A stretch of DNA of 64,000 nucleotides from Globomyces pollinis-pini (Eukaryota; Chytridiomycota; Chytridiomycetes; Rhizophydiales; Globomycetaceae). This document shows positions 410-63,607 of the stretch, piece after piece; the first letter of the stretch is position 1, and the number at the start of each line of letters is the position of its first letter. The position numbers were made by a program, and so were the translations under genes. The notes below the pieces were generated by a model. That model was not told where the DNA came from, searched no databases, and saw nothing but the letters and a program-made list of their open reading frames with translations. Where the stretch lies: assembly GCA_025399215.1 (NCBI GenBank), contig MU621102.1, forward strand, positions 43,493-107,492, written 5' to 3'.

Positions 410-1308
410 CTACTTTTTTCTTCGATTTAACCACTTGTAAACGGGTAACCCATTTGCATCTGTTTTACCAGCTACTTTACGACGTGCACCTTTCCCAGAT
501 AAATTCCTTTGCAGCTGTAATTCATCAGTGGCAGCGGCCAATTTCTGATCTCTAGCTAATCTTGAAGCTAGTTCTACAGCATGACGTTGTCGTTGTCTAG
601 TTAATTTCTAAGAAATATAAGAGTGGTTCTAAAAATTGTGGAAAAGGGATTTAAAGAAAGAGTGATTAAAAGTAAATTACCTTTATCGCGTCCTCTTCTG
701 GTGCCTCGATTAAAGTATTTTCCAAAGTAGATTTTCTAATTCGGTTAATTGGTCTGTTTGCCATAGCAGGAATGGTATCAAAATGAGTGGCTAGGTCAAA
801 GTTCTTAACTAAAAAACATTAAAATCATTGTACAATATACCTAAAATAATGAGCTTATACGATATAAAATACCATCTTTTTCATCTTCCACAAAAACTAT
901 ATGATTTGGATTCTGACTTGGACCTTGATCATCAGTAGGTTCCACAATATGCAAATGATTTTGAAGTTTTTCAATTTTCTTTCTATTTATAGATTTCTGT
1001 AATTGAATATAATTTTGATCCTGAGTTTTCAACAATTGAATGGTGTCGTTATCATATAAGTTTTCATTTTTTAACAAATGGACACCTTTCACTAGTTTCT
1101 CCTTCTCCATTTTCAAGTAAAATTCATCGTTATTTTTAAAAGCAGCTTTCTGTTTTAACTTTAGGAGTAAATTTTTCTTTTTCTTGTAATCCTGAGCTCT
1201 CAATAAATAGTCCTTTTTCTTCTCCAACAACCCCATATGTTCCCTAGCCTGGGGTTGACTTCGTTCCCGATGAGTTCGTCTTGGAGCTGCCTTTCTTAGT
1301 GATGACAT
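410..1308 (-). CDS. UTP11: U3 snoRNA-associated protein Utp11 (SSU processome)
   Basis: Component of the U3 snoRNP/SSU processome that acts in the nucleolus in early 18S rRNA processing. The N-terminus (MSSLRKAAPRRTHRERSQP) and the segment after it (GLLEKKKDYLLRAQDYKKK) are the hallmark of the family, and the C-terminus ends VYKWLNRRKK. Three exons: 1308-873, 808-681 and 607-410, giving 253 aa, the usual family length. Intron 1 (809-872, 64 nt) is needed to join ...FVEDEKD to VKNFDLATHFDT. It consists of two 32-nt GT...AG units placed head-to-tail. Intron 2 (608-680) is 73 nt. The splice model rests on family similarity. Confidence 0.93.
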
Positions 1309-2509: not shown

Positions 2510-3400
2510 ATGAATAAAGAAAACATCTACCAACCAAATAACATTTTCAAAACAAGGAATGAATCTGCTATTTTATTGATACTCAATCAACCTCTACCAA
2601 ACATCAAGTATTTTAAATTATTATGGGAAAACAGTAAAAATAATTCAATTGATTATTAGCTGCAATACATGTTGTTGCTGATGGTGGAGCAAACAGATTA
2701 TTTCATCTATTTGATACTGAACAGGAAAGAGATCAGTAAACTTGATCCATTCATCATAGATATTTACCAGATTTTATTGAGGGTGACTTGGATTCGTTAA
2801 CGGATGATGTCAAGAATTATTATTTATCCAAAAACATTTCAATCAAGAAAAATCAATGTCAGGATTCAACGGATTTTATGAAATGTTTGGCTTTACCAAT
2901 GGTCAATAAATCCGAGGATTATATTTACGTATTGGGAGCGTTATCAGGAAGGTTAGATCATACCATTAGTGCTATGCATGTACTATTGTTGAATCCTTTG
3001 AAACGTATTGTTCTTTTGAGCAACGATTCAATGGCATTCTTGATACCCATTGGTATGCATCTCTCTTATCTAACACAAAGGTAATCATTCCACTTATTTT
3101 ATTTTTCTTAGGATCAAGTACCATTCATTCTTGTGTAGAAATTGAAAAGGATACGTGTGGACTATTTCCATTGACGGGAAAGGCTATCTGTTTCTCTGCA
3201 GGCTTAAAATGGAACCTGGGTACAAAAGATAACGTTTGTCTAATCTGTTAGATCATACATTACCCCTTGCTTTCGGAGACCTTATTAGCACTTCGAATGC
3301 TTTTGATCCTAATTACTACGATGAAAATCTAGGAATTAGAAAGGTGGTTTTGAAAACGGATCGAGAACTTATTTGGACTGTTGAGTTGGATTTAAATTGA
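2510..3400 (+). CDS. THI80: Thiamine pyrophosphokinase
   Basis: Transfers pyrophosphate from ATP to thiamine to make the cofactor thiamine diphosphate. Five exons (2510-2633, 2660-2735, 2760-3052, 3112-3219, 3252-3400) give 249 aa, close to the usual length of eukaryotic TPK. Family landmarks in order: ILNQPL, VVADGGANRLF, FIEGDLDSL, DSTDFMKCL, LGALSGRLDH, GLKWNL, and FGDLISTSNAF. Introns are 26, 24, 59 and 32 nt. The 24-nt intron (2736-2759) is required to join ERDQ to YLPDFIEGDLDS, and the 59-nt one splits into 28+31 at an internal AG|GT. Without these introns the catalytic region would be broken. Confidence 0.92.
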
Positions 3401-9969: not shown

Positions 9970-12900
9970 ATGGCCAGTCATCAGAACCGACTTAATCACC
10001 CTCCACCTCAATATCAAATGCAACAGCAGCTACCCATTCAGTCTCCAAAACATCTGCCGGGTAATCGCATCATCGAATTAATGGACTCTTTGAAACATGA
10101 AATTGATATGCTGAATGAGGATTCTACCCTATCAAAACATCATCGTAAAGACTTGGAATTAAAATGTATTTATTCTTGTTTTTTTATTCACTTTTATTCA
10201 GTAACTGCCCAAATTAACGAAGTCGCTGCCATGAAACAGTCCTTGTTCGAACTGGAGCGCGTTTACTCAAACTCAAAGATTCAGTATGAAGAGGAAATTA
10301 TTAGATTGAGAAGAGAGTTGGAGAGTAGAGGAATCCCTTTACCAACTGCAAATACATCCTTGGATGCTAGAAACTACAGAAAACAAAGTATACTACCGGA
10401 TGGAATACCCCCTCCAAACTTAAACAACAACCCAAGGAATCCTAATACTCAAAACCCTCCTTTCAATAATAGTCAGCCCCCATATCCTCCAAATCCTAAC
10501 GCCCACCCTTCATACCAAGGTAATGATTACATACAAACTCTGTCTATTTACCTTTCGAAAATCATATTTTCAAATATCTTGATATGGCTAAATTTGAATT
10601 TTTTTCATTGCTCTTGTCCGATCACTAATTTTGTCAGACAAGGCTGGTTCAGAGAGACATCCAAAACAAATGAAACTCCAAGATAATAGTGGACAAATGG
10701 TTGGTGGTCCTCCACCCCACCTTCAACAAAGACATCGGGATTCTATTCCAAACTTGAAACCAGTTCAAGGGGTGCCACCAATGCAAAAACCAAGAAATGC
10801 AGAAGAATATCGCCAACATGAATTCAGACAATCACATTACAATGGACATGTTCCTCCTCACATGCAATCAGGTAAGTGGTGTATATTTCATTAACCTTAG
10901 GCCCTCCAGGTAATTTGTTAATCTTTTAATTTCTAGGTGCTCCTCCAGGTATTATTTCTTCATCATAATAACTTCCTAGCTCATCCACAGCAAGGTAATA
11001 ATATATTTAACTCACATTAAGGTCATCCGCCTGCCCAACGTAAATATTCGTATATCTCATCACTAAGTAGCGCATCCACAACATGCTCCTCCTCCTCAAC
11101 CAAAAATTGATCAAAGAGCTGGCGCTCCACCTCATCCAAATAATGGTATTCCCATTATTAATTCTTACCAAAAGGGCATCCTCCTCACCTTATGCATGGT
11201 GCTCCTCCAAATGCACATATGCCATATCCTCCTCCTCAAACAGTTTGTTCTTTATGTTATAATGCTAGGCCACCCCACCAGTTGGACAATATCCTCCTGG
11301 ACATGGACCTACTGCTGTGACTGCTTCCTCAGAGACCTGGAAGCAAGAGGATTTAACATTGGCCCTGCATGCACGTCTTCAAAAAGCCAATGTGTCTGTT
11401 GATTTATTACATAGTTTTGAGCACTCTAGGTATTATGAGAATTGCTAAATTTGAAAGCGTTGTTTGTTGTGTCAAATTTTCACCAGATGGAAAATACCTG
11501 GCAACAGGATGTAATCATTTTGCACAAATTTATGAAATATCTTCTGGAAGAAAGATTCTGTATTGATTGATAGACTCATTTTAGTGCATTGGTTGATGAA
11601 ACAATCTCAAAAGATGACGATCTGTATATTCGCTTTGTTTGTTTCTCCCCTGATGGTGTTTATCTTGCAACTGGTGCTGAAGACAGTGTCATTCGTATTT
11701 GGGATATTGTTAATGGTCGAATTAAGTTGAAATTACAAGGACACTCACAAGACATTTATTCGCTTGATTGGTCACGGGATGGTAAATTGGTTATCAGTGG
11801 ATCTGGAGATGGAACTGTCAAAGTAAATAGCTTCAAATGTTGATTAATAGGTTTGGGATGCCGAAAATGGAAACTTATTACGTACATTGACCAGTGATAG
11901 TGTTGATCCTGACAAGCAAGGAAAAGATTCTGGAGTAACATCAGTTGCGATCGGACCAAAGGATAGCAGATGTGTTATTGCAGTAAGAGAATGAATTCAT
12001 TGAATTTTAGGGATCTTTGGATGATATTATCAGAGTTTGGGATGTGAAAACTGGGCATTTATTGGAGAGATTTGAAGGACATGGCAATTCCGTATATTCC
12101 GTTGCATTTTCACCTGATGGTCGATCCATAGTATCTGGGTCATTAGACCAAACGATTCGTATTTGGGATTTTTCACCATCCACTTTACAAACTCTCATGA
12201 CTGCCCCTGGACCTCGACCTGAAGTCGCTGTGACCAAGCAATGCCGTCGATCTTTTGCAGGTCATCAAGATTATGTGTTATCGGTTGGGTACCCTGGATT
12301 AACATCATCAATTGGTAGAGTAGATCCACAAGGAAGACCGATTCATGATACCAGCTTTGATATCGAATGGGTAGTCTCTGGTGGTAAAGATCGACATGTA
12401 TTGTTCTGGGATGTAAAGGATACATCTGAAAAAGCAACACCTCTAATTCAAATGTCGGGCCATAAAAATTCTGGTATTGAATAGCTATGATTTATTAACG
12501 TTAGTCATTAGTGTGGCTGTTGGTCCAATTGGAGGAGTGTTTGCCACTGGATCTGGAGACCAGAAAGCTAGAATATGGAGAGTTTCTCGTATGCCTGTTT
12601 CTACTCCACCCGTTCCTCAACAGCAACATCAAGGACCACCACAAGCTGTGCATCAACCACCTACTTCTCAGCATCAACCACCTAGCGCACAACATCAACC
12701 ACCAAATCCACAGCATCAGCTACCAAACCCACCACCACACCAACCACCAAACCAACTACATCAACAGCCGCCAATCCCCCAACATCAACAGCCACCTAAC
12801 CCACAACATCAACAGCCACCTAACTCACAACATCAACTCCCTCCACATCCATCACAAGCACAGCAAAGTACTCACCATCATTCTCTTCCGCCACAACCAC

Positions 12901-14830: not shown

Positions 14831-16693
14831 ATGAACATTTTAATAGTCGCTTCCTTGTTGGCCCTACAAGTGTTGGGTCAATGTACTCAACCGGCTGTGC
14901 GACGTGAATGGAGACAACTTAGTCCAAGTGAACAGTCTGACTATTTGGTATTTTTGATTAGTGATTTATGTTAGGATGCTGTCAGATTACTGAAAAATAG
15001 ACGTCCTGGAGGTCAAGATGCTTCCACTTGGAATTACGACCAATTTGCTGATTGTCATAATGCCTACAGTCCAGCGAACCATGGAACAGTAACTTGAATT
15101 TTTTTAATATCTAGCCAATGTTCTTTCCATGGCACAGACAGTTTTTAAACAATTATGAAAAAGCACTTCAATCTGTTAAACCAAACCTTGTTGTTCCTTA
15201 TTGGGATTGGACCTTAGACTCTCAAAACCCAGGTGGTTCTGTTTTGTTCAGTCCAAATGCATTTGGTAGAAACGGAAACCCATCACAAGGTGGTTGTGTT
15301 ACTGAAGGTGTTGCCGCTGGTTGGACCACCAGTGTTGGAGGTTCCCACTGTTTAAGAAGATGTAATTCGTTCTCTGCGTTCTATCCACCTGCTGCTGTAT
15401 CCGGTTTAATCTCACGTTCTACTTCCTTTGCTTCATTGGCTTCGTCAGTTGAAGGTGGTCCTCATGGACAAATCCATAACCAAGTAGGTGGATCCTGTGG
15501 TGATTTCACCCAAATGTGGTCTGCTAACGATCCTATCTTCTTCTTGCATCATGGTATGGTCGACAAAATCTGGTGGAGATGGCAATCTCAATGTTCATCA
15601 TTTGAAAAACAATTTAACTCAAACCCTCGTTCATCAATGCCTCCATTTAGAGATACTGTTAGTGACATGTTGGACACACAAGGTGGTGTTCTTTGCTATA
15701 CTTGTAAGATATCACATTTATTCTGATTGTTTAGATAGCCGAAGTGCGGGAGACACCCCTTTGCAACTAAGTTGCCCGTCTGGTCAATTGCCTGCACCTG
15801 GTGTAAATGGTGAAATTCAAGGAAAGGGAAGTGCAGTACAATCTACTACTACATCTGCCAATGCTCAGCCTACTGCCACTACTTCTACTGAATCTGCCGC
15901 TTCTCTTTCATCTCCAACTGTTACCAACGACACTGCCCTCGATGCTGAGATTTTCTGGCTTGAAAAAGGAATTCAAGGACTATTGTCTAATTTGGACAGC
16001 TCTGCAGTTCAGTTCAAATCAAGAAAGAGTGTCAATAAGAGAGGACTTCTTAAAGAAGGCCAATTACAATATCTTGATCCAGTATCGGACACTAGTTCAC
16101 TTCCAATCGAAGTGACTCTGTTGCCAAGCCATACTTCCACCAAAGAAGAATCATACTACTTGACCTCTTCGATTCCAGCACCTAGCTCTGTAAACATTAA
16201 GCCAGTTTCTAGTGATGCTGCTAGTCCAAGTGGTTATGGCCAAGTCCCTGTCACCAACACTGAAACTATCGTACAGTCTACTACTCAAGCAACTTATGCA
16301 GCTGGGCTCAGCCCAACCTCAACCACTACTGCTTATGTTACTGCAACCACCCCAGATGTCATTATGACGTTTACCCCATTACCAATGGTACAGAGACCAC
16401 TCATCAATCTTCCATTACCTACATACACTTTCAACACCACCTACAAAATAGAAGCTCCAAAAGTTGGAGACTTGAATGATCAAATTCATTTAAGACACCC
16501 AGAATACATCCCAAAAACTTTTATCAAAAACATGATGTTGGATCCATATGTAGTTCGTGAAGTTGAAGTTTGGATGCAGCATTACATTGATGATCTCAAT
16601 AACAGAAAAGGTTATGTGTCTCCTGCTGCTCTTAAAAACTTTGACAAGTATAACTGTGAAAGTAAAACTCAACCAAAGCAACCAAACTACTAA
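14831..16693 (+). CDS. Secreted tyrosinase (copper oxidase) 1
   Basis: Oxidises phenols to quinones with a binuclear copper centre; fungal enzymes of this class make melanin-type pigments or crosslink walls. Four exons (14831-14947, 14975-15088, 15115-15703, 15735-16693), 592 aa. Signal peptide MNILIVASLLALQVLGQC. CuA His are in ADCHNAYSPANHG and FFPWHRQF; CuB His are in GPHGQIHNQVGG and PIFFLHHGMVDKIWWRW. After the catalytic domain come a Thr/Ser-rich linker and a conserved C-terminal domain (QIHLRHPEYIP... GYVSPAAL) shared with the two paralogues below. Introns are 27, 26 and 31 nt. Copper ligands all appear present, so the enzyme should be active. Confidence 0.92.
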
Positions 16694-16946
16694 TTGTTCC
16701 ATATTTCCAATAAAAAAGTTTCCACTTTAAATTTACGTTCTTGTGTCCATATTTTGTAAACTTTTAAACTCGATCGTGTTTACGTTTAAAGTGTATCAAC
16801 GACTCTTATAGACCAAAGAAACAAATTTTATCATGTAATTGATATTGTTAAATTTGTATAGTATTTGTATCAAATTCCAAGATTTGGGTTCAAAAACAGT
16901 GGCTTTAATACTTGAATGACTGGTTCAGTAGTTACAAAATAGCAAT

Positions 16947-18638
16947 ATGAAATTACACTACAGCTACAACTATTGGATACTACTACTATTACTGATAGTA
17001 CCATCCCTCAGTCAATGTACAAATATCAGCGTTCGAAAAGAATGGCGACAACTATCATCACAAGAACAAGAGAATTATTTGGTAAATCCAATTGTGTTTG
17101 TTTAACGATAGAATGCGGTTAAAGCGTTGAAGGCTAGACCAAGGTCCAATACCAGTGATTTGGCAGCTTGGAATTTTGACCAATTTTCTGAAGCTCATTT
17201 CAAGTTCAATTCTGCTAATCATGGAACTCCACTCTTCTTTCCTTGGCATCGTAATTTCATAAATTATTACGAAAGAGCTTTACGTTCTATTATTTCTTCT
17301 GTTACCATACCATATTGGGACTGGACCCTGGATTCTCAAAGACCTTCTCAATCAGATGTGTTTGCTTCAAGGTTCTTTGGTGGAAATGGAGATCCAATAA
17401 CTCAATGTGTAATGGATGGAATCGCTGCTGGTTGGCAAGTCAGCACAAACGCTAAAGGATGCTTGAAGAGATGCAATCAATTTTCTTCCTTTTATGGCCC
17501 TGAAGCTGTCAGTGATTTGTTATCTCGTAGTGATACCTTTGCGGAATTCCAGAATTATATTGAAAATGGACCACATGGTGCTGTGCATAATCAGATTGGA
17601 GGGTTATGTGGTGATTTTTCAAGTATGGCTTCCACAAATGATCCCGTGTTCTATCTACATCATGCAATGATTGACAAACTATGGTGGAGATGGCAAAGTG
17701 GTTGTTCCAGCAACGTAAATGCGTTCAGTTCCAACACAAATGTTGGCCTCCCACCGATGCCTTACAGAATCGCAGACATGCTTTCCACTACTAGCAATAC
17801 TCTATGCTATACGTATTCGCGATCCGCTGGAGACGTTCCACTCAATTTGGAATGCCCAAATGGGAGTGTTCAGATGCCAGGGCCAAATGGTGAATTGGTA
17901 GATAATAGAATGGATTCTAAATCAACCACTCTCTTTTCAAGTTCAACAACTGTATCTGGGACTCAAGCCACTGCTGGGGCAACTAGGACAGGCTCTTTCC
18001 CTGTTGTCTCCACAACCGCCACTAGAAGTAGTTCAACAGCAACACCAGTGATTTCCAAAACAGAAATTATACGAGAAGACGAAAAAAATCAGCAATGGCT
18101 AGAGATATCCATTCAGTCTCTGATTCCTGGTATGAAGGATATTGCAATCAATCCTCTTAAAATACAAAGTAAACTAGCAATCAACCAAGATATTATCATC
18201 GAGCCAAAAATCCAATTGGAAACTGCTAATGTTGGTGCTCCAGAAGATATTATCGAACCTAAAATCAATCCCTCAATTGAGCCTTCAACTGTTGGTATGA
18301 CCATGTCCATAGACCATGTGAAAAGGCCTCCTTTACCTATCTACAGATTTAATCAGAATTATACAGTCAAAGCACCACCTTGTCGTAACTACACAGACGC
18401 CATTCATCTTCGTCACCCAGATCCAATGCCCGAATCATTCATCAAGCAGATGATGTTGGATGAATATTATGTTAGGAAAGTTGAAGTTTTGGTGAAACTC
18501 ACCACTGATCGAATCAACAACCAACGAGGATACATCTCTCCTGCCGCCTTAAAATACTACAATACACATAATCTTTTGAATCGATGGAAACCACCTAGTG
18601 TCACATCCTCTACTATAAAATATGAAATCAAAAAGTAA
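16947..18638 (+). CDS. Secreted tyrosinase 2
   Basis: Tandem paralogue of tyrosinase 1, 553 aa in two exons (16947-17081, 17112-18638). A hydrophobic signal sequence ends near VPSLSQC. CuA: FSEAHFKFNSANHG and FFPWHRNF. CuB: GPHGAVHNQIGG and PVFYLHHAMIDKLWWRW. The Thr/Ser linker is followed by the shared C-terminal domain (AIHLRHPDPMP... GYISPAAL). Only the first of tyrosinase 1's three introns is present (30 nt, same position after ...YL). The upstream 250 bases hold the 3' end of tyrosinase 1 and this gene's promoter. Confidence 0.92.
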
Positions 18639-18802
18639 TAAAAAAAGATCAGTTATCAAATCTTGGATACATTGGTTTTGAATAAGACATTCAGATGAAT
18701 AAATGAGATTCAACAGACCATCGTGACAACTATTATGTCATCAGCTGTGATAAAATCTACTGCTCCTTACCCCCCCTACCGGCTAAAGAGTCATTCAATC
18801 AA

Positions 18803-19675
18803 ATGCTGTGTTACCAAGGGCCTGTAATTCTTTGTGAAATGAGCCCTGAAAATGACAACTGGGGTATGTGTGGTAACACAAAGAATTGTATAAATCATCA
18901 ATCAATCCCCAATATGGAGTCAATGGTTAACATCTATAATGGACTCCAACCGAGCAAACCTACCAAGGTTAAAAAGCCAATGAATTCTTTTTTCATCTAT
19001 CGACGTGAAATGCGACAACGTATCATTGAAATGTATGGTGTCAACAAGAGTCAAGATATTTCCAAAGTTGCTGGTGAGTGCTGGGCATTAGAACCAACGG
19101 AAGTTAAGCAGCATTTCCAAAATCTGGCTTTAATTCATCAATTGGAAAAAGAAGAAGCTGAACAGAAACAAAAGGCTGAAATGCATCGACGATATCATTC
19201 ATCACCAGTTTCAATGCCATCTTATCAATTGGATTCAGCAATGATGTATTCAAATAGTTTGCCCTCTTTCGATTCTCCTTTAACTTCCATCAACACCACC
19301 CTCAAAAATGAACAAATGAATTACTCTCCAATCTCCTCAAGTTGTCCAACCGGTAAATTTGATTACCATTTGAACTCTTCAAAATCAATAGAGAGTTTCA
19401 ATAGTGATACTTCAACAATTATTGAAAGTCAGCATGGTGAATCTTTGCCCTCCTCATGTTCTATTCAATCATCTGCCTCTAGTATTAGCTATGAAAGTCC
19501 AATGACTTTCCAAAAGTTGGATCTGAGTGAATTGACACCCAAATCAACATACAATTACCTTCCCCCTCCTCAATTGTCTCCTTTTGAATTTGAAAACATT
19601 GATGGAATCTATAACTTTGATTCACTCTTGTCTTCTCTTATCAAGTCAGAAACTGGCTTTGATATTATGTCATAA
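18803..19675 (+). CDS. HMG-box transcription factor (MATA/SOX-type)
   Basis: A 290-aa single-exon protein. One HMG box at about residues 54-115 begins VKKPMNSFFIYRREMRQRI and continues with the helix-2 sequence SKVAGECWALEPTEVKQHF. The PMNSFF(I/L)YR form is typical of the fungal MATA_HMG group, which includes mating-type and developmental regulators. The rest is Ser-rich and acidic, suited to transactivation. It sits between tyrosinases 2 and 3, so control of the cluster is an attractive guess. No neighbouring sugar/triose transporter or RNA helicase marks a sex locus. Confidence 0.85.
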   Translation: MLCYQGPVILCEMSPENDNWGMCGNTKNCINHQSIPNMESMVNIYNGLQPSKPTKVKKPMNSFFIYRREMRQRIIEMYGVNKSQDISKVAGECWALEPTEVKQHFQNLALIHQLEKEEAEQKQKAEMHRRYHSSPVSMPSYQLDSAMMYSNSLPSFDSPLTSINTTLKNEQMNYSPISSSCPTGKFDYHLNSSKSIESFNSDTSTIIESQHGESLPSSCSIQSSASSISYESPMTFQKLDLSELTPKSTYNYLPPPQLSPFEFENIDGIYNFDSLLSSLIKSETGFDIMS

Positions 19676-20027
19676 ATTCTTATTGACTTCTTAAAGTACC
19701 TCATACCCAAACCTCATGGAAAGGATAAAACGTTTAGACCTCTTATATCTTGTGGATAAATTGTAAAAAATAAACAGTTTGTAAGCTTAAAATCATTCTT
19801 ATTTACATACAGATGAGGAGATCTTTGAAGTTTAAGTCATTCTTGATTTAACCACTTTCATATAACACTGTGATTGAAGTTCAATTAAAATTGAACCATA
19901 CTTGAATATCTAGCAGTTTCCAATCTCTGTTCGCAGACGCGAGTGTTGGCAAGCTAGTGCTTTTATCTCTCACTTGAGTTCAAAACATGTTTTCAATAAA
20001 TACTTGAGCTATGATCAACAAAACAAT
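19676..20027 (+). other. Convergent intergenic region, no gene seen
   Basis: 350 bases between the 3' ends of the HMG-box gene and tyrosinase 3. It contains AATAAA signals for both strands and no coding frame. Confidence 0.5.
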
Positions 20028-21622
20028 TTATTTAGAATGATTGTGTTTTACACACTTATGTTTTTTACCCGATTCTTTTGAAGGTTCAGGTTCTGAAGCT
20101 TTGTATGCAGCAGTTTTTTGCTCATGGGCCTTTGCTTCAGCTTCAGCCTTTTCTTGTGCTTTAATTTGATTGACAAGAGCAGCTGGTGAGACATATCCAG
20201 GTAAATTGTTGTAGTAATCAATAACATGACGAGCTTCAACTTCCAATTTACGAACAGCATATTCATCCATTCTCATGTTGATAATATAATCTCTATCGAG
20301 CGAACCAATATGACGGATGTGAACTTTATCAGTCAAGTCGCCAATTGGTGGGGCAAAGATAGTAACATTAGGATATGGTTTGTAGACAGGCAATGGTTTT
20401 GGTGAAGGATAGGAACCGGCAGCCTGTGTCATGGTGACAGGATAGGCACCCATTGTAGAGTAAACATCAGCGGCGAGGGTCATAGTGGTGACATTTCCAG
20501 CACCATATCCATTAGGTTGAGCATACAAATCACGCTTGCTTTGTCTTGTTTGTTTGACGATCAATTGCTTAATCAAAGATTTAAGCCATTCGCCTTCAGT
20601 GGTTGGAGCATTAGTAGGAGTTGCCTTGGCAGTACTTGTGGTGGTAGCAGTTGCAGCAGCAGTGGTAGTGGTGACACCCAATTGACCAGATGGACACATA
20701 TTCTTGTCTAAAGTGAATGCAGTATCACCTCTGCTAGCAGAGTATGTGTAACAAAATGGTCCAGCTTGTGTGTTTGATACATCTGCAACTGTTCTTGGGT
20801 AAGGGGCTAATCGATATGATGAAGAACCGGCATACTTTCCAACATTCTCCTTACAAGCACTTTGCCATCTCCACCATACTTTATCAACCATACCATGATG
20901 CAAAAAGAAAATCTAACATAAGTATTGAAAATCAGTTTACTGGATCATTGGTACTCCACATTTGTTTAAAGTCACCATTTGCTCCTCCAATAGCATTATG
21001 GACCATACCGTGAGGACCATTTTCAAGGGAAGTCCAAAATGTGCTAAAATCAGGTGTTCTTAAGAGATTGGTGACAGATTCTGGACTCCACAACTTTTTG
21101 GACCAGTCATTGGTTCGTACCAAACACTTTCCAGCCCTGTTTGGACCGGCAGTTACAGTCCAGCCTTTTGCAATCCCAGTAGTCATACAGTAACCCGATG
21201 CAGGATTTCCGTTCAAACCGAAGTCTTTGAAAACGTCAGCGGCGGTTGGGTTTTCTGAGTCTAACGTCCAATCCCAGTAAGGCAGGATGATGGAAGGATT
21301 AACAGATTGTAACGCTTGTTCGTAATGGTGAATAAACCAACGGTGCCAAGGCAAGAAAGGGGCTTTTGAATGATTATCAAGTGCCATTTCGATGTGCAAG
21401 TCAGCAAATTGATTGTAATTCCAACGAGCGTAATCTGTTCTACCGGCTGGAGCACGATTCTTTAAAGCAGTAACAGCATTCTAACATAAAAAACAAACAC
21501 CTTACCAAATATGCATCTTTTTCTCCGCGAGACAGTTGAGACCATTCTTTACGAACTGATGGATTCGAGCATTGTGCAGCGACATTGGCGACCAAGAAAG
21601 CAAGAAGTAAACTGAGCTTCAT
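20028..21622 (-). CDS. Secreted tyrosinase 3
   Basis: Third paralogue, on the opposite strand, 513 aa in three exons (21622-21506, 21480-20941, 20912-20028). Signal peptide MKLSLLLAFLVANVAAQC. CuA: ADLHIEMALDNH and FLPWHRWF. CuB: GPHGMVHNAIGG and IFFLHHGMVDKVWWRW. The C-terminal shared domain (KVHIRHIGSLDRDY... GYVSPAAL) is followed by an extra Lys/Glu/Ala-rich tail ending KHKCVKHNHSK. Introns are 25 and 28 nt; the first is shared with tyrosinases 1 and 2, the second (inside the CuB motif, after NDP) is not. An AATAAA overlaps the stop codon. Confidence 0.92.
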
Positions 21623-21984: not shown

Positions 21985-23180
21985 TTATTTCTTTGTTGTT
22001 TTGGCTTTATCCACTTCATTCAAAAACATTCTCACAGTCTCAAAGTAAGCGGGTTGTGAGACAGTATCGTTATGGTTCCCTTTTGCAAATGATTTAAATT
22101 TAATCAATTTTTTGGTAGAGTTTTTGGAAATATCATGCAACTTTTTCATGTGAGAATTTGGAACGATTTGATCAGAGTCTCCACTACAAATTTAAGATTT
22201 TTTATCGAATGGCAGTATGATGGTGGATTCAAGATTCGGAAGAATGTCCATTCAACATTAACTTACCTCAAAAACAGTATAGGAAGATCAATAGAGCCAA
22301 TTAATTTTTCGGAATCCCAAACAGAGCTGCACAAGAAAGTTAACGGTGCGAGTAACGGTACAGCATTTGGTAACACTTTGGGCTAAAATTTGAATTAAGT
22401 TCCCTGAAAAATAAATTACCACACTCAAGAAAGTATTTTCAATCATCAATGCGTGAATTTTTCCTTGGTTCTTGGAAGCAACATGAAGGGCAACTGCTCC
22501 TCCGAGAGACTGTCCATAAACGATGATCTTTGATTTTTTCAAATGTTGATGCTCCAATATATATTCCATTGCAGCCTTGTATGTCAACAAATATGATATC
22601 TTATACCTCTCCATCCAATCGTAATCCTTTTTCGTTTGCACTGCCTTCACTAGCACCATATCTACAAATTTAAATTAATTGCCACAAACCTAACGTGTTA
22701 AAATAATCCACAGCAATACCCTCGATAGGATACCATAAGAACATTGCAGGTCAGGTACATTTGTAATGCCTTAGCAATGGGTAATCGGTGACCAATGTTA
22801 CCAGCCTGTCCATGAAAGTACAAGATAGTAGTATTTGATAATGGTCCAGTTTTATTTCCAGTTCTTGATTTAATCAAATATGCTTTAATCTTTACGTTAT
22901 CACTAGTTGTGATAGTGACATCCTCCCAATCAGCAATTCTAGGGTCAATTTCATACACTGATAATACTGATGTTCGTTTGGCTTTGGGATTTCAGTGCGA
23001 GCACCTTGAGGAAACTCACTTGCGTAACTATAAAATCAGATAAACCACCACCGTTAGTTACATGAATAAGTTCTGGTAAAAGTATAATAGCGTTAAAGCT
23101 AACAACAACAAAAGAATAAAAACGATCGAAAGTCCTTTCAATATCCAAATGATCCAACCTCCTACAGCTGCCAACTCCAT
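21985..23180 (-). CDS. Bem46/ABHD13-like alpha/beta hydrolase A
   Basis: Membrane-anchored serine hydrolase, 307 aa in seven exons (23180-23062, 23027-22968, 22938-22720, 22661-22607, 22575-22420, 22382-22267, 22183-21985). An N-terminal transmembrane helix is followed by TTILYFHGQAGN (oxyanion region), LMVSYRGYGASEGSANE, the nucleophile elbow VYGQSLGG and the catalytic Asp region SGDSDQIVP. The late His is in the GNHNDTVSQP segment. Introns are 34, 29, 58, 31, 37 and 83 nt. The 58-nt intron (22662-22719) splits into 30+28 at an internal AG|GT. It is a tandem duplicate of hydrolase B, with matching exon lengths. Bem46 proteins act in cell polarity and ER/plasma membrane lipid metabolism. Confidence 0.88.
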
Positions 23181-23254: not shown

Positions 23255-24416
23255 TCATTTATTTAATTTGCCCTTGTCTACATCATACCAAAAACTTCTT
23301 ATCGTTTCAAAGTACTCTGGTTGAGATACGGTGTCGTTGTGACTACCTTTTGGGAATGATTTAAAACGAATCAACTTTGACGAGGACTTTTTAGCAATCT
23401 CATGTAGTTTTTTCATATGTGATGGTGGGACAAGTTGATCGATTTCACCACTACGATTTTAGTAAAATGTCAGTTGTATCAAAGTAAAAACAATAGTAGA
23501 AACGTATAAAATTGATATGCTTACCTTAAGAATAGAATAGGCAAGTCGATGGTTGCAATAGCAGATTCAGAATCCCATATTTGATTGCACAAAAAGGTTA
23601 ATCTGGATAAGACTGGTAAAACATGTGGCATCAACTTCCTCTATAATACTAATCAAAAATACCAGCTTACTAGTCCAAGGAACGTATTTTCCAGTACGAG
23701 AGCATCTATTTTACCTTGGTTTTTGGCTGCCAAGTCGACGCTAACTGCACCTCCAATGGACTGCCCATAAACTAAAATCTTGGAATTTTTCAAAGAAGAA
23801 TGGCTTGTAAGATAGTCTAATGCGGCCTAAAACATTAAATCTATTGGTATTTATACTTGAGCATCCAATTTCATCCCTTGTTCGTTTGCACTTCCTTCAC
23901 TGGCTCCGTACCTAGATTTAGACCACTCCAAAATACCTAGAATTCATTAAAATTTAAAACAATACCCTCGATAAGACAACATGAAAACATTACACCCCAA
24001 TGCCATTTTCAAAACATTTGAAATTGGTAATCGATGACCCATATTCCCTGCATTAGCATGAAAGTACAATAAAGTTGAATTGGCCAATGGTGCATTAGGT
24101 TGTGCTCGATGTCTGATGAAGTATCCCTTTAATTTAACCCCATCACTTGCTGTCAAAGTAACATCTTCCCAATCATCCATTCTACCATAAACTGATTAAT
24201 GAAATACCCATGTTCATTTGGTTTTGGAATGTTTGTTCGAGCACCTTCTGGGAAATCAGCAGCATAACTGAATGATCAAACCGGATCAACTTACATCATC
24301 TTGTTCTGATTGAAATATAACAAACTGATAAAACCAGTTGCAAGTGCTAGTGAGAAATAAACTGCCCATTTTAAGGTCCAAGTCGTCCAACTAATAAAAC
24401 TCGCACTTAATTCCAT
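23255..24416 (-). CDS. Bem46/ABHD13-like alpha/beta hydrolase B
   Basis: Paralogue directly upstream of hydrolase A, 306 aa in seven exons (24416-24295, 24267-24208, 24181-23966, 23911-23857, 23826-23671, 23640-23525, 23450-23255). The same landmarks are present: N-terminal helix, STLLYFHANAGN, MLSYRGYGASEGSANE, VYGQSIGG, SGEIDQLVP and GSHNDTVSQP. All six introns sit at the same places as in A. Introns are 27, 26, 54, 30, 30 and 74 nt; the 54-nt one (23912-23965) splits into 29+25. Five of seven exons are identical in length to A's, so the duplication kept the gene structure. Confidence 0.88.
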
Positions 24417-28851: not shown

Positions 28852-29902
28852 ATGGATCTCAAATTTTCTCTTAGAGTTCATACAGCATCGGTTACCTGTC
28901 TTGATTTAGTTCAATCTCTTGGGGATAACAAATTAAATGGGAATAATGCGCTTGTTTCTGGAGATCAAAGTGGTCGTTTGGTTTTTTGGGATTTGCTATT
29001 ACGAAGACCAATTCATCAATGGATTGGTCATGATGGTGCTATTATTCAAGTTGGAACTTATACTCTGGAAAATCAACTATTTATCGTTAGGTTTGGAAAT
29101 CATTAATTTATTGCTAGGTTTGTGTTTTAAATATTAACTCTATTCTACCAGTCAAGGTCGTGACGATTGCATTCGAATTTGGAATTCAAAGTATCAATTA
29201 TTCAAGTCTTTTGCTGTAAATTCATTACATTTCTGTCAATTTAAATTAAATCATCTCAATCATATTGTATTTATCCAACCAAACGATACTGTAAATTTTT
29301 AATTAGTATGTAATACTATAGATTGATGTATTAAATCTATCAACCCTTCAATTAATACCCAATGAATTCACATATCCGACTACGTCAGGATCCTGCTTGG
29401 CTTTAGAATGGTACTCAGATTCCCAGATCCTAGTTGGAAGTGATGATGGTTCACTGCATATGCTGAGTATTACAGGAATTCAGATGTCTCTTAAATGCCA
29501 CTCTGAACCTGTTTTATCTATTGCGGTGTTGAATGACACAATCGTATCTGCTGGTGCCAGTCAGAAAATTGTTGTCTGTACTTTAAAATCTGATAAACTT
29601 GCAATCTTGGTATTCAGAATTCGGTTTAATTTTAGTGGGATATAGATTTAGAAAGTCAAGGTTTATCTCAAGTAGTTGCATTCCCTTTTAAGAGTCAATT
29701 AGGACTTGTAACGGCAGGCTGGGATAGCAAGTTAAGGCTTTTTAAACAAACTAAACAATTGGCCGTCAAGCAGGAACATAGAAAGTCAATACGCTGCTTG
29801 GCAATTGGTCAGATTACTGACCATGGAAATACTATGAATGTATGTATCTGTGGATCAGATGATACTAGAATTAGCGTCTGGGATATTCATGATGAAAAGT
29901 AA
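28852..29902 (+). CDS. ASA1: ASTRA-associated WD40 protein Asa1 (GNB1L-like)
   Basis: WD40 propeller protein of the ASTRA complex, which assists folding of PIKK kinases in the nucleus. Four exons (28852-29090, 29152-29290, 29322-29609, 29636-29902), 310 aa. Family landmarks: LVSGDQSGRLVFWDLLLRRP near the start, SQGRDDCIRIWN, TAGWDSKLRLF and SDDTRISVWD at the very end. Introns are 61, 31 and 26 nt. The 61-nt intron (29091-29151) splits into 27+34 at an internal AG|GT. It is divergent from the myristoylated-protein gene with a 265-base shared upstream region. Confidence 0.82.
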
Positions 29903-38522: not shown

Positions 38523-41500
38523 ATGAATGGAATTCTACCATTTATTGATCGAATAGAACTGAATCAATCTGAAGCATTGTTTAAACAGCATGCAGTTAAC
38601 AACACAGTCACAGGTGAGTCATTGACTGACTTACTTGTAGCATCCGTTTTACAGAATATTCTTACTCAATCCGGGCTAAATCAAGGTATATTGGGCCAGA
38701 TATGGTATTTTGTTTCTTCTCATGTATAGGTATTTGGAGATGTGCAATCTAATTTTATAGGTGATCGATTTTTAAAATTAACTTTTACAGGTACAGCAAT
38801 TCTATAGTTGATAGATTTATAGGTATAATGAAAATAGTTTTTATTCGTTAGGAATTTGTCTATTAGAGGATCGTCGATTAGTTTTCCTGAGTTTGCCCTA
38901 GCAATGTTTCTTACAAAGACTGCGCTCAAGGGTTCTCAGTTACCTCAGCAACTTCCACCACAAATTCAAAAACAAGTTACTGATGCAATTCAGATGGTGT
39001 CCCAGACCAGTAATGTATCGGCACAGAACATGTCACAATACACTCAACCTATCATGACTCAACCAACTGGATTTGGAGCAGTACATTCTCAGCCAATGTC
39101 AAACCAACCAACAGGGATTGGAATGATGCAATCTCAGCCAATTATGACCCAGCCTACCGGGATTGGTATGCATCCTCAAACTATGATGAATCAACCCACA
39201 GGAATGGGGATGGTACCACAACCAATGATCAATCAACAAACAGGATTAGGAATGATGCAATCTCAACCAATGAATCCACAGGTAACAGGATTTTCCGGTC
39301 AAATGCGCCCAACACCGTCCATATCATCAGGCAACTACAGCTCCTCGATGTCAACACCAGGAGGACATTTGCGAAATGATAATCATAGTAGAGTGGGCTC
39401 TAACGTATCTCAAACCTCGCAATCCTCTCAAGCTACTTGGGGTGTCTCTGCACAAGAAAAGCAGAGATATGAAGTGATTTTCAAATCTTACGATCCAGAA
39501 AATGTCGGATTCATATCAGGTAAATTTTGATAAGTAGATATTCACCAGCAAACATTCTTGACCTATTTCAATTCATTAATATTCTAATGATTCAGGTGAA
39601 AGGGCCCAAGCTGTCTTTGCACAATCAGGTTTACGTGAAAATATGTTGGCTCATATTTGGAACTTGTCTGATATGCAAAATCGAGGAAAGCTTAACTTGG
39701 ATGAATTTTGTGTCGCAATGCATTTGGTTTACGCAAAGTTAAACGGCGAGCCATTACCATCTCAACTACCACCAAATTTAGTTCCTCCTTCTCAACGGGA
39801 TTTAAGTGCCTTGGCCGATTTTGCTAAGCTCAACGCAATCCAACAGCCAACTGTAAAACGAATAAGTCCTGCATCCTCATTAGTTGGACTTTCAACATAT
39901 GCACAACCTATCCCTACTCGTTCAAATATGTCAAATGTTGTATCACAGGATGAAGAACTTGATGACGAGAGTAAAAAAAGCTTGTTGGAACTCGTCGAAG
40001 TTAAACGGAATACTATTGCACAAACAAAGGATATTATAGGTTTCCCTTATTCAATCACTAATGTCGAATAGATTCTTTCAACAAAAAGGCTACCCAACTT
40101 GAAGTATCGTTCACAGATATGAAGTCAAAGAGTTTAGTTGCTAGAGAAAAGACACTTAACCTCCAGCATTTGATATCTAATATGAGCGCATTAAAATCTG
40201 GATCTCATACAGCTGCCATTCCTGATTCTGACATTCAGCTATTTGAAGAGCTAGAAAAGAACATTCCAGGTATGTTTTTTTTATAAGAAAATTGAACCAT
40301 AGCCTTGGTATCTGAATGCAAGCAAAGACAAATAGTTTGGGCTAATAATCAAATAGAAAAAATACGAATGAACAATAGAAACCAACCAGCTGGAGAGAAT
40401 GTTGTTGTAAATAGAGCACAGCAGCTATTGGCAGAACGAATGGCTGCTTTAGGAGTTAAATCAACTTTAGCTTCAACGTCAGCAACTATAGCAGCACCAG
40501 TCAATACTATGGCCGACGATATTGCAAAGATTGAAAGAGAGAAGGCGAGTAGATTACAAGAAGTAAATGACATTGAAACTCGATTCAATGTATATTCTAA
40601 TCAAATTCGTGCGGCAATAAATGCTCAAAGAGTTCATTCCACCTCAGTCAAATTCTGGAATCCGTCAGTGCCTGAGCAAGTCAAATTCGGAGAAGGAGTT
40701 GGGTTGAAAAGCAACTTTGTTTTATCAATGTTCATGGAAATTCAGTCGTTAATTCCTAAATTATCAAATGAATCCAATGGGTTTGTTCATGCAAATACAG
40801 CCAAGCCTATGCAGTTCCACTTTGAGAAGCCGACTTTGATGAACACAGCTGAACAAAATGTATCTTCGATACCAACAGCTCAAATGGCAAAAATCACACC
40901 TGAGCTTCCTTCACCACTTTCAGACTACAAGAAATTTACTCAGCCTACTGTTCCAGAAAGACTTTCTGCATCCCCGTCTGTTACACTTCCATCAAACATT
41001 GCGTCTGTCTTAGAACAAGCCGAGGCATCTATTCAGGCTGTGAAGGATAGAAATGCATCTTTCTTACTCCAAAGTCAATCGCCGCAATCAGCAAATAAAC
41101 CAGTACTTACTCAAGCGTTCTCACCAAATACTCAAAAACTGGAACCAACTAAACCACACTCTATGGGTGGAGCCATTAACGAAAACCCTGTCACAAAAGC
41201 TTCTAATTCACCTTATAACTCCAATTTTGCTAGTGAAAAAGTTGAGCCAGTGCAATTCAATCCTCCCTCTATCCCAAAAAGGCTTGAAAACCTTCCACAA
41301 TCAACATCCAGTGAAAATAATGTAAATGCCCTTCCAAACGTTAAACCCAAAAATACCAATAGCTTTACGTTCAGTTCAAGTATTCCAGAAAGCAACAAAC
41401 CTATTGAATCGACTGCTGGTTCACAGATTAGTAATGAATTCAATACAGGAGTCCCAAGTAACAATGGTGTTTCGGCGATGAATTTGATGAAATTGAAGGA

Positions 41501-44500
41501 GAAAGAGAATTTGCAAAAGAAACAACAAGAAGATTTGGAGAAGCAAAAGCACTCTGTTAAAAGAACTCCATCCCCTGTGAAAATAATTGATTCCGCTCCA
41601 AAGAAGGCGGAAACCCCTCCTATTCACGCTAATGTTCATAAATCAACTTACTCAAATCCTTTTTTCAATCAAACCGCCACAAAAGAATCTGCCGAACCTG
41701 ATACTTCAATTAAATCCACATTACCCACACCACCTCCTCCACCTCCATCACAGGTCAATACCAACACTGCTGTTTCAACTGGTTTACCACCACCACCTCC
41801 TCCTCCTCCTGCTCTGAGTTCTGTTAATGTTAACACAAGTCAAAAGGCAAATGATAGTGCTAGCAAATCAAAACCAGCGTCTTTTAATCCATTTGCTTCG
41901 GAAAATGCAAACCCATTGAAAGAGGCACTCTCACAACACAGAAAGAAAATTGGTGACGATTCCGACTCCGATGTAGAGTCCACATGGTCTACAAGTACCA
42001 GATCTCCAACAAAACAGTCTCCTGATATCGACTTTTTTAATGTTCGGAACACTCCTTTTGTTTCAGCAAAACCTGCTGTATCTGCACCTCCACCGCCTCC
42101 AACCAAATTATCAGTTCCTGCAGTACAAGGCGAATCACTGTTTGATGCAATTCGACGTGGAGCTTCTCTAAGAAAGACAGAAAGTGAGTATTCAACCCCA
42201 AATCCCTACTTTGATACTGTCCCATCGACCGCAAATTCTCAACTGGATAGTGAATCATCTATTTCTACTAAAGAAAACACCACATCTGTATCTATCGCTT
42301 CAAATGTTTTACCACCAGCACCACCGGCAGCACCAGTAGCCCCACCAGCACCTCCCGCTGCACCACCAATTCCGTCTGGTGGATTTGTAACTCCCCGAAA
42401 TAACAGTGAGTCAAATCCGAGATCATCTTTACTGGAATCTATTCGCCAAGGCACATCATTGAAAAACTCCAATAGTAAATTTAAACCAGAAAGAAACAAT
42501 CAAGCTACTAGCATATCAGCATCACCACCTTCAACAATAGCAGTTCCTAAACCTACAGAAACAGTACCAATAACGGTTGGAGGGCCTCCACCTCCCCCAC
42601 CACCAATGCCCAAAACTAATGCTGATGGAACCGTAGTTGCTGTAAAACTTCCTACGGCACATATCGATACACAGCCCAAAGTTAAACAGAAACCTAAAGC
42701 TGCTGATATTGGTGGGGTTGGACCAAACATGGCAGATTTATTGAAAGGGGGTATAAATTTGAAGAAAACCAGCAACGCACCAAAGTTTGCAATTGGAGAT
42801 TCCTCGAAAAATTCTGTCCAGGAAACTCCAGCAAAGGCTATATCAAATCCATTTGGAGTATTCCCATCTAGCGATGTAAAATCAGATCCAAATCAATCTG
42901 CAAACCAATCAAATCAAATCAGTAGTACCAATCCATTTGGAATTGTGGAAAAGGCAAAGAATTCAGATGAAGGGTGGGAATTTGTTTCTTCTAGCGTTTC
43001 ACCAGCAAAACAAGGAGATACCCTTCATGGAACTCCTAGCGATGATGTATTCCCCGCTGTGGTTGACGGAGAAATAGTTGGTAAATAGTTACTCTAACAT
43101 TTAGAACCAGTGTTTGAAAAATTCAAAGTGACTGTTCTGTTTGACTTTCAAGGAACTAGACAAGATGACTTGACAGTACAGACTGGTGAAACAATTGTTG
43201 TAGAAAAAGAAGAGGGAGAATGGTTTATCTGTAGGACCAATACAGGTGTCTCTGGGTGGATTCCGAAAGCATTTGTTACTCCTGAAGAAACTAAAAGTGC
43301 AGTTGTCGTTCCAGTGAAGAGTTTGGTGTTTGCAAAAGTGCTATTCGATTTTGAGGCAAGAAACATAGATGAGTTAACATGTGCCTCTGGACAAATTGTT
43401 ACGGTAGTTGACAGACCCGAGGAAGCTTGGACGCTAATTAGCCATAGTGACAAAAGTGGATTAATTCCTACCAGTTTTTTGGAAATAATTGATGAGTCTA
43501 AAGATACAGATACTCTGTCTCGTTCGAATCATCCTGGTGGAAATGGATCTTCAAGAGAACATCGAAACAATGAAGATTTTTCAAGCGGTACGGCTGGCGA
43601 TCCAACAAACGATCACCAGTTCAATCATGGCACCTTGGGTGGAGGAACTCATTTCGGATCATACGAAATGATTAGCACACCAGAGGTTTATGAATCTGTT
43701 AAGCTTGAACATGGTGAGCATTTGTCACAAGAGGATACAAGACGATTGGAGGCCATACACGAAATGATTCAAACGGAGAGGTCTTATGTTGAATCATTGA
43801 AAATTGTTTCAAAGAATTTCTATGAACCACTGGCCAATATGAATATTCGCATGGATGTATTATTCTCGAACTTCTTACAGATTCTTGAAACCAATAAAGG
43901 GATCTTACGCGACTTTGAACAGTCTGATTCATCAAAGACGCCTATAGGGTCGGTGTTTCTACAACATCTTGATAGTCTCGAACCATACAAAGTCTATTGC
44001 GAAAATCTATCAACTGCATCTGAATACCTCCAGCGTGAAAGGACTATGCAACCTCAATTGCAAGAATTTCTCAAGGTTAGTGTCTATTGAATAAAGGGAT
44101 TTTCAACCCTTCTAATTGTTTCTTGTTCAATCTTTTTATACTTACTTATGTGCTAATTTTGAATAGAAACAATTGAATGGCCCTGACTGCAAGCATCTAG
44201 ATCTCTCGTCGTATTTGTTGATTCCTATGCAACGTGTTGCCAGATATTCATTGCTTCTGAGAGCAATCCTGCACTATACACCAAAATCGCATCCTCACCA
44301 TGACGCAACTCTCATCGCACTGCAATTGAGCGATGAATTTTTAGACAAACTCAATCTTGGGATTAAAGTAGCAGAGAGTCGTAAAAAAATCAAGATGATT
44401 AGCGATACATTAGATTTGGAAATCCCCTCAGAGGTAAGAAGGTGAAAGCATTTATTTGTAGCATTATGTTCTGGATTTGAACCATCCTACCAGAACGTTA

Positions 44501-45357
44501 GGAAACAGAATTTTTTTGCATGAGGGAAATTTGTCAAAGAACAAAAGTGGCAGAAAGATATTGGCTTATCTTTTTAATGATTTTCTATTGCTGGCACATG
44601 CTAAACCGAATTCTGGACATCAAAAGCCTTTCTGGTTATATCGAAAGGTAATGCACATGAACTTTTGTGTTTACGTTAGCCATTAATGTTGGATTCACTT
44701 ATTGTTAGAGAGGCAATTCGTGTTGCAGGAAAAGATTGTGGCCCGTTGGATAATTGTTGTCTTCAATTTGTTTATGAAGATGAAGTGATGACGTTTCGGG
44801 CTGCTAACGTGTCAGAAAAACGATTATGGATGAATCAGGTAGAGTCAGCAATTAGAACAATCTCTTCAATAGCAAAAAGTACAACAGGTCTAAATGCGAC
44901 ACTCTCAGAAACCATGGGAACCTTGAGTGTTCACTTGGTCGAAACCAGAGGAAGAACAGAACCTGGCAGTAAAATTATGCTCATATGCTAAATGGTAGAT
45001 CGTAAAGAACTTTTCGTAGTTGCCAAACTCAGTGGCCAAACGTTGAAGTCTAAATTGATTCATCCTTCTAGACCACAGTTTAACCAGTCCTTGATGTTTT
45101 CTGTGACTTCCTTGGTAAGCATATCGAATACGTAACCTTTAGGATTCAAGTCTACAGTTGTCACTCTACTACTATGATAAGTACTCTGCCGATGGTAAAG
45201 TGAATATTTCATAACTATAGAATACCTTGGGTCATCTGAGATACAGCTCGACTTTTTAGAGTATTATGGTGGTAAAGAGACTGAGTTAATACAACTCGCC
45301 CTTAAAAATGGAGGATACGAAAGTATATCGATAAAATTAATGTATCGCCCTGCTTAA
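38523..45357 (+). CDS. Intersectin/Pan1-like endocytic scaffold: EH2-CC-WH2x3-SH3x2-DH-PH-C2
   Basis: Predicted 2083 aa in 13 exons. EH domain 1 at residues ~1-80 (IWNLSIRGSSISFPEFALAM), EH domain 2 at ~250-345 (HIWNLSDMQNRGKLNLDEF), coiled coil to ~520, NPF motifs and poly-Pro runs, three WH2-like actin motifs at nt 42139, 42427 and 42730 (e.g. LFDAIRRGASLRK, DLLKGGINLKK), two SH3 domains from nt 43130 and 43333, a DH (RhoGEF) domain from 43740, a PH-like domain to ~44860 and a C2 domain (GTLSVHLVETRG...) to the stop. Role: endocytic coat and actin patch assembly, with Cdc42/Rho activation. Twelve introns; nine are 24-39 nt, others 76, 91 and a 147-nt array (38705-38851). Confidence 0.9.
38705..38851 (+). 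repeat. Head-to-tail array of five mini-intron units
   Basis: The non-coding gap inside EH domain 1 of the intersectin-like gene. It divides exactly into 38705-38729 (25), 38730-38760 (31), 38761-38790 (30), 38791-38822 (32) and 38823-38851 (29). Every unit begins GT and ends AG, with AG|GT at each junction. The flanking exons join as ...GQIW|NLSIRG..., the EH consensus. The units are not similar in sequence. Confidence 0.75.
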
Positions 45358-62800: not shown

Positions 62801-63607
62801 ACTCTTGAATTTCAGCGTTTGTCAAATTAGCAATATCCTGCGTCAAACCACCACATTCAAAAGAATAGGTCGTTTTATTTTGATAGACCATTTGTCTCAT
62901 GTGTAAATCCAGCTAATAATAATGATTAAATTGTCAATGGAAATACCAAATCAGCTTCTGAATTTTCTCTACCGGCCATCTATATATTAAATAATAAGTG
63001 ATACCTCACAATATACGACACCTTGATGTTTAGCAGTATGATCCAAGTGATAGACTTCTGTCATGAATTGTGAATCCAATAAAGTAGGGTTGAGTATATG
63101 ATCCAAATAAGTGGGCAATAGATTTATCATTCCTTCCTCACCTTTTTAAATTAGTACAAGAATGATATACCAGCAGTGGTAATTTCGTAACAAGTATGAT
63201 CTTCAGCTGTGTATGCATTTGTACCAGTGGATAGACATCTTGTAGCTAAATTATCTATATGATGAGAATTGATATAATATAACCTAGAAATCCACGATGA
63301 GGGATTGAAGTAGAACCACAAAAGATGAGATGCTTTTGGTTAAATTAAGTCTATATTTACCTAATGATTAATAAGAATTGAGATACCTAATGATTAATAA
63401 GGATGTGAATACTTCTAGAGTATGAGGTAAACCTTTATTATTATAAGATAAAGTAGGTAATATTATAGAAGCGGATACTAAAGGACCTGGGATGTCTATG
63501 AATAATATTCTGAATTGAGTATTTTTTAATAGGAAAGATTTAATGTAAGAATTTGAACAAGGTAGTTTAAGTGGTAGTTTGTCTTCGAGTATAAAGTGCG
63601 TGTTCAT
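59837..63607 (-). CDS. M16 (insulinase-family) metalloprotease, Sdd3/YOL098C-like
   Basis: Large zinc peptidase, 1126 aa in 13 exons from 63607 to 59837. The inverted zinc motif is complete: HTLEH in LPHTLEHLIFCGST, followed by the family's NAYTAEDHTCYE and YHLDHTAKHQGVVYCEMAGRE segments and the GG-containing helix. Two M16 halves follow. Between them at about residues 350-380 is a highly acidic insertion (D-rich, encoded near 62200-62290). Twelve introns: eleven of 24-34 nt and one of 80 nt (63333-63412) that lies inside the HxxEH motif and consists of three mini-intron units. One exon is only 33 nt (62979-62947). Confidence 0.9.
63333..63412 (-). repeat. Array of three mini-intron units, two duplicated
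   Basis: Read on the minus strand: unit 1 63412-63387 (26 nt), unit 2 63386-63361 (26 nt), unit 3 63360-63333 (28 nt). All start GT and end AG. Units 1 and 2 match at 21 of 26 bases and share the 3' half CTTATTAATCATTAG. The exons on each side join as HTLE|HLIF, the zinc-binding motif. Confidence 0.8.

Follow-up and report, generated by a model that had tools for sequence, protein, structure and literature searches.

Predicted head-to-tail mini-introns with zero-length exons in a Pan1/intersectin-like gene and elsewhere in the genome of Globomyces pollinis-pini

The window, meaning the whole 64,000-nucleotide stretch of DNA analysed here, is C13:43493-107492 of a Globomyces pollinis-pini assembly that has 18,547,825 bases in 459 contigs. 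Coordinates without a contig name are positions in the window. G. pollinis-pini is a chytrid of the order Rhizophydiales. One gene adjacent to the array matches a deposited protein of this fungus at 100% identity over its aligned part, which covers 92% of the query. The window contains a Pan1/intersectin-like gene in which one EH domain is interrupted by an array of five short units.

38523..45357, + strand: host gene, Pan1/intersectin-like, with EH, WH2, SH3, RhoGEF, PH and C2 domains; deposited as BC833DRAFT_617246, 2095 aa
38614..38640, + strand: candidate mini-intron of 27 nt in the same EH domain, upstream of the array, in-frame; coding in the deposited protein
38705..38729, + strand: array unit 1, 25 nt, GTATTT..TATAG; without a YTRAY motif
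38730..38760, + strand: array unit 2, 31 nt; branch-point motif CTAAT ends 7 nt before the 3' end
38761..38790, + strand: array unit 3, 30 nt; TTAAC ends 8 nt before the 3' end; weak donor GTGATC
38791..38822, + strand: array unit 4, 32 nt; TTGAT ends 10 nt before the 3' end; weak donor GTACAG
38823..38851, + strand: array unit 5, 29 nt; without a YTRAY motif

The first-pass annotation had claimed that the 147-nt gap at 38705..38851 breaks exactly into GT...AG units of 25, 31, 30, 32 and 29 nt that meet as AG|GT wherever two of them adjoin, and that each unit alone has the normal intron size for this genome. Both claims are borne out. The units add up without a base left over, and solitary introns (n=347) have a median of 29 nt, a mean of 28.5 and a standard deviation of 2.7. 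All five units have the GT donor, the AG acceptor and the normal size of U2-type spliceosomal introns. Units 2, 3 and 4 have a YTRAY motif at a distance of 5-10 nt from the 3' end, and units 1 and 5 have none; 187 of the 347 solitary introns have it. Our gene finder parsed the region into the identical five units. It was not given the array, and its training sequence included the window.

Splicing between the outer sites (ATATG|GT...AG|GAATTTG) would give the joined protein GILGQIW^NLSIRGSSISFPEF. The deposited G. pollinis-pini host protein lacks the array exactly between these boundaries and has the same join, and residues 1-420 of our spliced model are 98% identical to it. The EH domain joined over the array matches intersectin-1 EH structures in an alignment that runs across the join (2khn, E 7e-8) when the 27 nt at 38614-38640 are also taken out of the query. 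We think that these 27 nt are another mini-intron, because their removal better fits the expected length of an EH domain.

One can imagine that AGGT simply recurs by chance in AT-rich intron sequence. The spacing had been called very unlikely by chance in the first-pass annotation, and we tested this by dinucleotide shuffling of the 147 nt. Four or more copies of AGGT occurred in 162 of 50,000 shuffles, and none of the 50,000 decomposed perfectly into units of 22-38 nt. A second line of reasoning requires a background sample. We joined the window to C1:1-200000, for a total of 264 kb or about 1.4% of the genome, and applied a simple gene finder to both strands. It uses a coding model, splice-site weights and intron lengths, and its gene models are predictions. 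It found 625 intron gaps in the sample: 608 single, 11 of two units, and two each of three, four and five units. Requiring well-scored exons on both sides leaves 11 composites, 19 long single introns and 347 single mini-introns. Two composites out of the 17, [216, 28] and [42, 28], look poor. They were kept in the 17, the 216-nt piece was excluded from the unit statistics, and both fall outside the 11 that have well-scored exons. Extrapolating from 17 composites in 264 kb would give about 1,200 genome-wide, provided that the sample is representative. A further candidate feature of these introns was rejected. Some ciliates have intron lengths biased to multiples of three, and no such bias is seen here, where 117 of the 347 solitary introns are divisible by three.

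The well-supported gaps of 45-160 nt separate cleanly. There are 26 of them; 11 decompose perfectly, against 0.47 expected after shuffling each, and the remaining 15 have no AGGT at all. Zero-length exons are also far too common. When the length of the exon between two mini-introns is left free and only intron-side weights are used, there are 23 exons of length 0 against a total of 12 for all lengths of 1-17 nt. With exon-side weights added the count is 24 of length 0 against a total of 24. Removing the four target junctions leaves 19 against 0.7 per length in the first case (about 27-fold) and 20 against 1.4 per length in the second (about 14-fold). The 23 zero-length exons divide into 11 in the window, 4 of them in the target array, and 12 in C1, a region that was not picked for arrays.

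Chains that do have exons between the introns occur as well. At 10872-11070 on the + strand, in what is presumably a Tup1-like gene, there are five mini-introns of 29, 27, 31, 27 and 31 nt. They are separated by micro-exons of 9, 12, 15 and 18 nt, all multiples of three, which encode a Pro/His/Gln-rich stretch, GPPGAPPAHPQQGHPPAQ. This is an intron-plus-micro-exon chain.

The whole genome was searched with two patterns. The loose pattern, AGGT-N-AGGT-N-AGGT, has 1041 matches (490+551), below the 2385 of its reversed control (1105+1280), and coding-repeat-like stretches such as one at C1:106 kb also match it. For these reasons it was dropped as a test of arrays and kept solely as a source of unit sequences. 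A stricter pattern with permuted controls was substituted. TAGGTA-N18-28-TAGGTA-N18-28-AGGT has 163 matches (67+96), its reversed form has 28 (12+16), and two letter permutations have 1+1 and 0+2. In favour of chance, AGGT chains of exactly two steps show no excess in the sample (3 against 3.17 in shuffles), and three-step chains are hardly in excess (1 against 0.33). However, there is an excess of single steps, 94 against 66.9, and of four- or five-step chains, which occur 3 times in the sample and never in 40 shuffles. Given the failure of every shuffle of the target to decompose, the spike at length zero, and 163 genome-wide chains against 2 and 2, chance is barely credible as an explanation.

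Composites in other genes of the window are as follows.

809..872, - strand: composite 32+32 in the Utp11 gene; the Utp11 match crosses the join
3053..3111, + strand: composite 28+31 in a thiamin pyrophosphokinase (TPK)-like gene; two TPK domain matches flank the join
22662..22719, - strand: composite 30+28 in alpha/beta hydrolase tandem paralog B, at the same codon position, SYR^GYG, as in paralog A; gene finder, Pfam match across the join
23912..23965, - strand: composite 29+25 in alpha/beta hydrolase paralog A; gene finder, Pfam match across the join
29091..29151, + strand: composite 27+34 in a WD40 beta-propeller gene; join-spanning matches, below curated cut-offs
63333..63412, - strand: composite 26+26+28 in an M16 peptidase-like gene; first two units 24/26 identical in a gapped alignment

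More arrays were delimited in an MCM gene, which we take to be MCM8 (six units of 27, 28, 31, 25, 27 and 25 nt), in a DOP1-like gene (three units of 29, 26 and 24 nt) and in a gene for a small secreted protein (two units of 32 nt). We assume the last to be LCL2-like; the protein has no Pfam match. When nine joined pieces were compared with Pfam, six matches spanned the join: Utp11, M16, the two hydrolases, Dopey, and WD40, the last below curated cut-offs. The MCM match begins one residue before the join, TPK matches lie on either side of it, and one piece has no match. It may be added that the window also carries three tyrosinase-like genes close together at 14831-21622, with few introns; the family name is given by sequence appearance.

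The longest array delimited in a gene in this analysis is in VPS24/CHMP3. It has ten units of 26, 29, 30, 32, 27, 29, 28, 29, 29 and 30 nt, or 289 nt. With the 289 nt removed, VPS24 aligns to CHMP3 across the join with no gap (3frt, E 9e-45). The deposited G. pollinis-pini VPS24 begins in residues read from array units 7-8, and it does not have the N-terminal part that is present in the five other chytrid VPS24 proteins compared. The array has probably misled the annotation at this start. Separately, Kappamyces VPS24 has a 19-residue insert after QQQL, where G. pollinis-pini has a 28-nt intron, and this insert is possibly a retained intron.

We argue that the 147-nt gap is probably five complete spliceosomal mini-introns with zero-length exons between them, each of which would be removed by its own splicing reaction. 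This is a reading of sequence. The first-pass annotation had proposed either a chain of recursive splice sites, with zero-length exons, or a single composite intron that grew as insertions recurred at an AG|GT site. The structure with zero-length exons is well supported by the zero-length excess, the genome-wide chains, the branch-point motifs of internal units and a two-unit intron in two paralogs; the second is taken up with the growth of arrays below.

The rival scenario for splicing is that the gap is a single 147-nt intron removed in one step between the outer sites, with the internal AG|GT tetramers as unused relics of unit duplications. There is a reasonable case for it. The gene finder also predicts plain introns, 73-91 nt long, that contain no AGGT, and the two that it places in the host gene (76 and 91 nt) are not part of the deposited protein. 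One-step removal of an array is therefore possible, and the idea that the spliceosome cannot remove introns much above 30 nt is rejected on the same grounds. The array too is missing from the deposited protein, but either model predicts that. The difficulty is that internal sites that are not used should decay, and there are several indications that they have not.

Consider branch points. Among the 28 non-last units of the 17 composites, 14 have the YTRAY motif at 5-10 nt from the 3' end, as do 187 of 347 solitary introns and 391 of 2800 shuffled interiors (p 6e-6). Without the target array it is in 11 of 24 non-last units (p 1.7e-4). Branch points were not modelled in the finder. Its acceptor weights, however, span the last 8 intron bases and overlap part of the motif, so selection may have contributed to the count of 14 of 28. 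We therefore also used units chosen by AGGT spacing alone, which are independent of splice weights. Here the motif is in 56 of 153 units against 896 of 7650 in shuffles. This set consists of the matches listed for the loose pattern in C1-C11 and partly overlaps the 264-kb sample. It has 99 rows, all within the unit-size filter; a second reading of one C10 place was excluded, and five C12 rows from the TAGGTA pattern were left out of the 56 of 153. Some features count against complete, separate introns: the donors of target units 3 and 4 are weak, target units 1 and 5 have no such motif, and the last units of composites have it in just 4 of 17, less often than non-last units or solitary introns. 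Internal donors score no worse than outer donors, where it must be noted that the composites themselves were picked with a splice-site model. At the level of sequence, motif context and branch points fit a putative use of AGGT as both a 5' and a 3' splice site.

The hydrolase paralogs offer another view. The pair was fused as one model by the finder and split for this comparison. The proteins are identical at 164 of 255 residues (64%), and four-fold third bases agree at 22 of 60, which is near saturation. Five intron positions are held in common. At SYR^GYG both paralogs have a two-unit intron (29+25 and 30+28), and at another common position both have a plain intron without AGGT, of 74 nt (23451-23524) and 83 nt (22184-22266) on the - strand. 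Since the pair keeps a two-unit intron as well as a plain long one, both kinds of long intron persist. The internal AG|GT appears to have outlived divergence on a scale at which neutral sites are lost, although the comparison covers a single pair and independent gain is possible. This speaks against one-step removal, under which the junction would be an unused relic. The VPS24 array makes the same point in another way. Its nine junctions are all intact, yet its neighbouring units are mostly unlike, with one pair above the random 99% level. On this evidence we regard one-step removal of the target array as improbable.

If the units are separate introns, each would be recognised by intron definition and removed in its own splicing reaction. 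The units could leave in any order and yield the identical mRNA, because excising one rejoins an AG to a GT and leaves an intact array one unit shorter. By reasoning from established splicing biochemistry, donor and acceptor factors could hardly occupy one AGGT simultaneously, so neighbouring units would leave one after the other.

How do such arrays grow? The clearest cases are local duplicates. A candidate array on C12 opens with two identical copies of a 28-nt unit. Behind them come two more units of 28 nt that are similar, one of 27 nt that is related, and one that is unlike the rest. In gapped alignments, unit 2 of the DOP1 array agrees with unit 1 at 24 of 29 letters and with unit 3 at 23 of 26, and the two LCL2 units agree at 27 of 32. 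A genome search, which skips very common words, found no other copy of the duplicated C12, DOP1 and M16 units within 3 mismatches. This points to local tandem duplication and not to dispersal. We suggest that unit-sized tandem duplication and deletion would lengthen and shorten the arrays, aided by the recurrence of AGGT where units meet, and that selection would afterwards keep every unit spliceable.

The alternative is that new introns, unrelated to those already present, insert at AG|GT time after time, by transposition or reverse splicing, and that arrays arise mainly in this way and not by tandem duplication. Most neighbouring units show no detectable likeness in the 99 pairs of the AGGT-spacing set. 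The adjacent pairs above the random 99% level number 8 of 99, with 1 expected, and 2 of the 8 are in the coding-repeat-like stretch at C1:106 kb. For most arrays independent insertion is therefore possible. Three things weigh against it. The clear cases are the local duplicates above, and three of the duplicated units match nowhere else within 3 mismatches. The 347 solitary introns show no introner family over the shuffled background (the best of 60031 pairs scores 12, shuffled 11); this search covered the 264-kb sample, in which a rare family could be missed. Finally, saturation would also hide old duplications. We consider insertion as the main route less likely than not. The second proposal of the first-pass annotation stands in so far as growth at AG|GT fits the arrays, but the direct evidence is for whole-unit tandem duplication, in a few of them.

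A relative may give a glimpse of an earlier state at the target site. The Boothiomyces JEL0866 ortholog has, at the protein level, seven extra residues (YLSYNSR) after GQIW, exactly at the position of the array. There is room in the codons of these residues for one GTA..AG segment of 21 nt, and it is plausible that the model mistakenly kept a solitary mini-intron. The Boothiomyces protein is thus a hint that the ancestral site may have held one intron.

Taken together, we lean, by a little, towards a picture of introns as a kind of microsatellite. Mini-introns would multiply in place and form arrays of two to ten or more units, with perhaps around a thousand arrays genome-wide. The units would be spliced separately in any order, and copy number would drift freely and be invisible in the mRNA. 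Such arrays are a natural, countable system for intron multiplication. They differ in age, some have identical units, and several are in conserved genes. They make it possible to test where new intron copies come from, how many splicing reactions are tolerated at a site, and whether an overlapping AG|GT serves two neighbouring introns. They are also a warning for annotators, as the deposited VPS24 start inside a ten-unit array illustrates.

It remains to set these arrays beside known systems. Introner elements are dispersed, similar intron copies. The arrays resemble them in that introns proliferate, but unlike introners the duplicated units tested here are local only: neither the three duplicated units, searched with up to 3 mismatches, nor the 347 solitary introns of the 264-kb sample show similar introns dispersed over many genes. 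In tandem genomic duplication a new intron reportedly arises from a duplication, whereas here whole existing introns would be multiplied in place. Intron gain by this route has been reported, and the likeness is that a tandem duplication supplies the intron sequence (PMC4974935). Among the matches listed for openly licensed PMC papers, titles and the beginnings of abstracts contain no head-to-tail arrays of spliceosomal mini-introns.

Stwintrons, as outlined in PMC9024468, occur in ascomycetes and come in [D], [L] and [A] classes. Like our arrays they place several U2-type introns in one fungal intervening sequence, and they need more than one reaction, as is predicted for the arrays. In a strict stwintron, by that outline, a splice element of the outer intron is split by the inner one, which has to leave first (PMC9024468). 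Here the units are complete and none is interrupted; every target unit starts with GT and ends with AG, with no split element. The human polyubiquitin gene UBC is described as having tandem dual-specific AGGT splice sites (PMC10809524), and the likeness is a tandem row of AGGT sites that could, in our arrays putatively, serve as donor and acceptor. The UBC repeats are coding, according to the same description, and splice to a variable number of monomers (PMC10809524), while in our arrays it is introns that are repeated, which would leave the mRNA unchanged.

A further parallel may be drawn with recursive splicing, whose ratcheting points or zero-length exons are known, as summarised in PMC2773006, from large animal introns in Drosophila and mammals. 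There too AG|GT is the acceptor of one segment and the donor of the next with no exon between (PMC2773006). In our case AG|GT lies inside the intervening sequence at the four target junctions and throughout the zero-length excess. The scale is different. Recursive splicing subdivides large introns from the 5' end, in the account given there (PMC2773006), and here the fungal genome is compact and each unit is a minimal intron, about 24-36 nt long. No large intron is subdivided: the target array is 147 nt and the longest delimited here is 289 nt. Unlike recursively spliced large introns, these arrays line up as many as ten minimal introns in a row.
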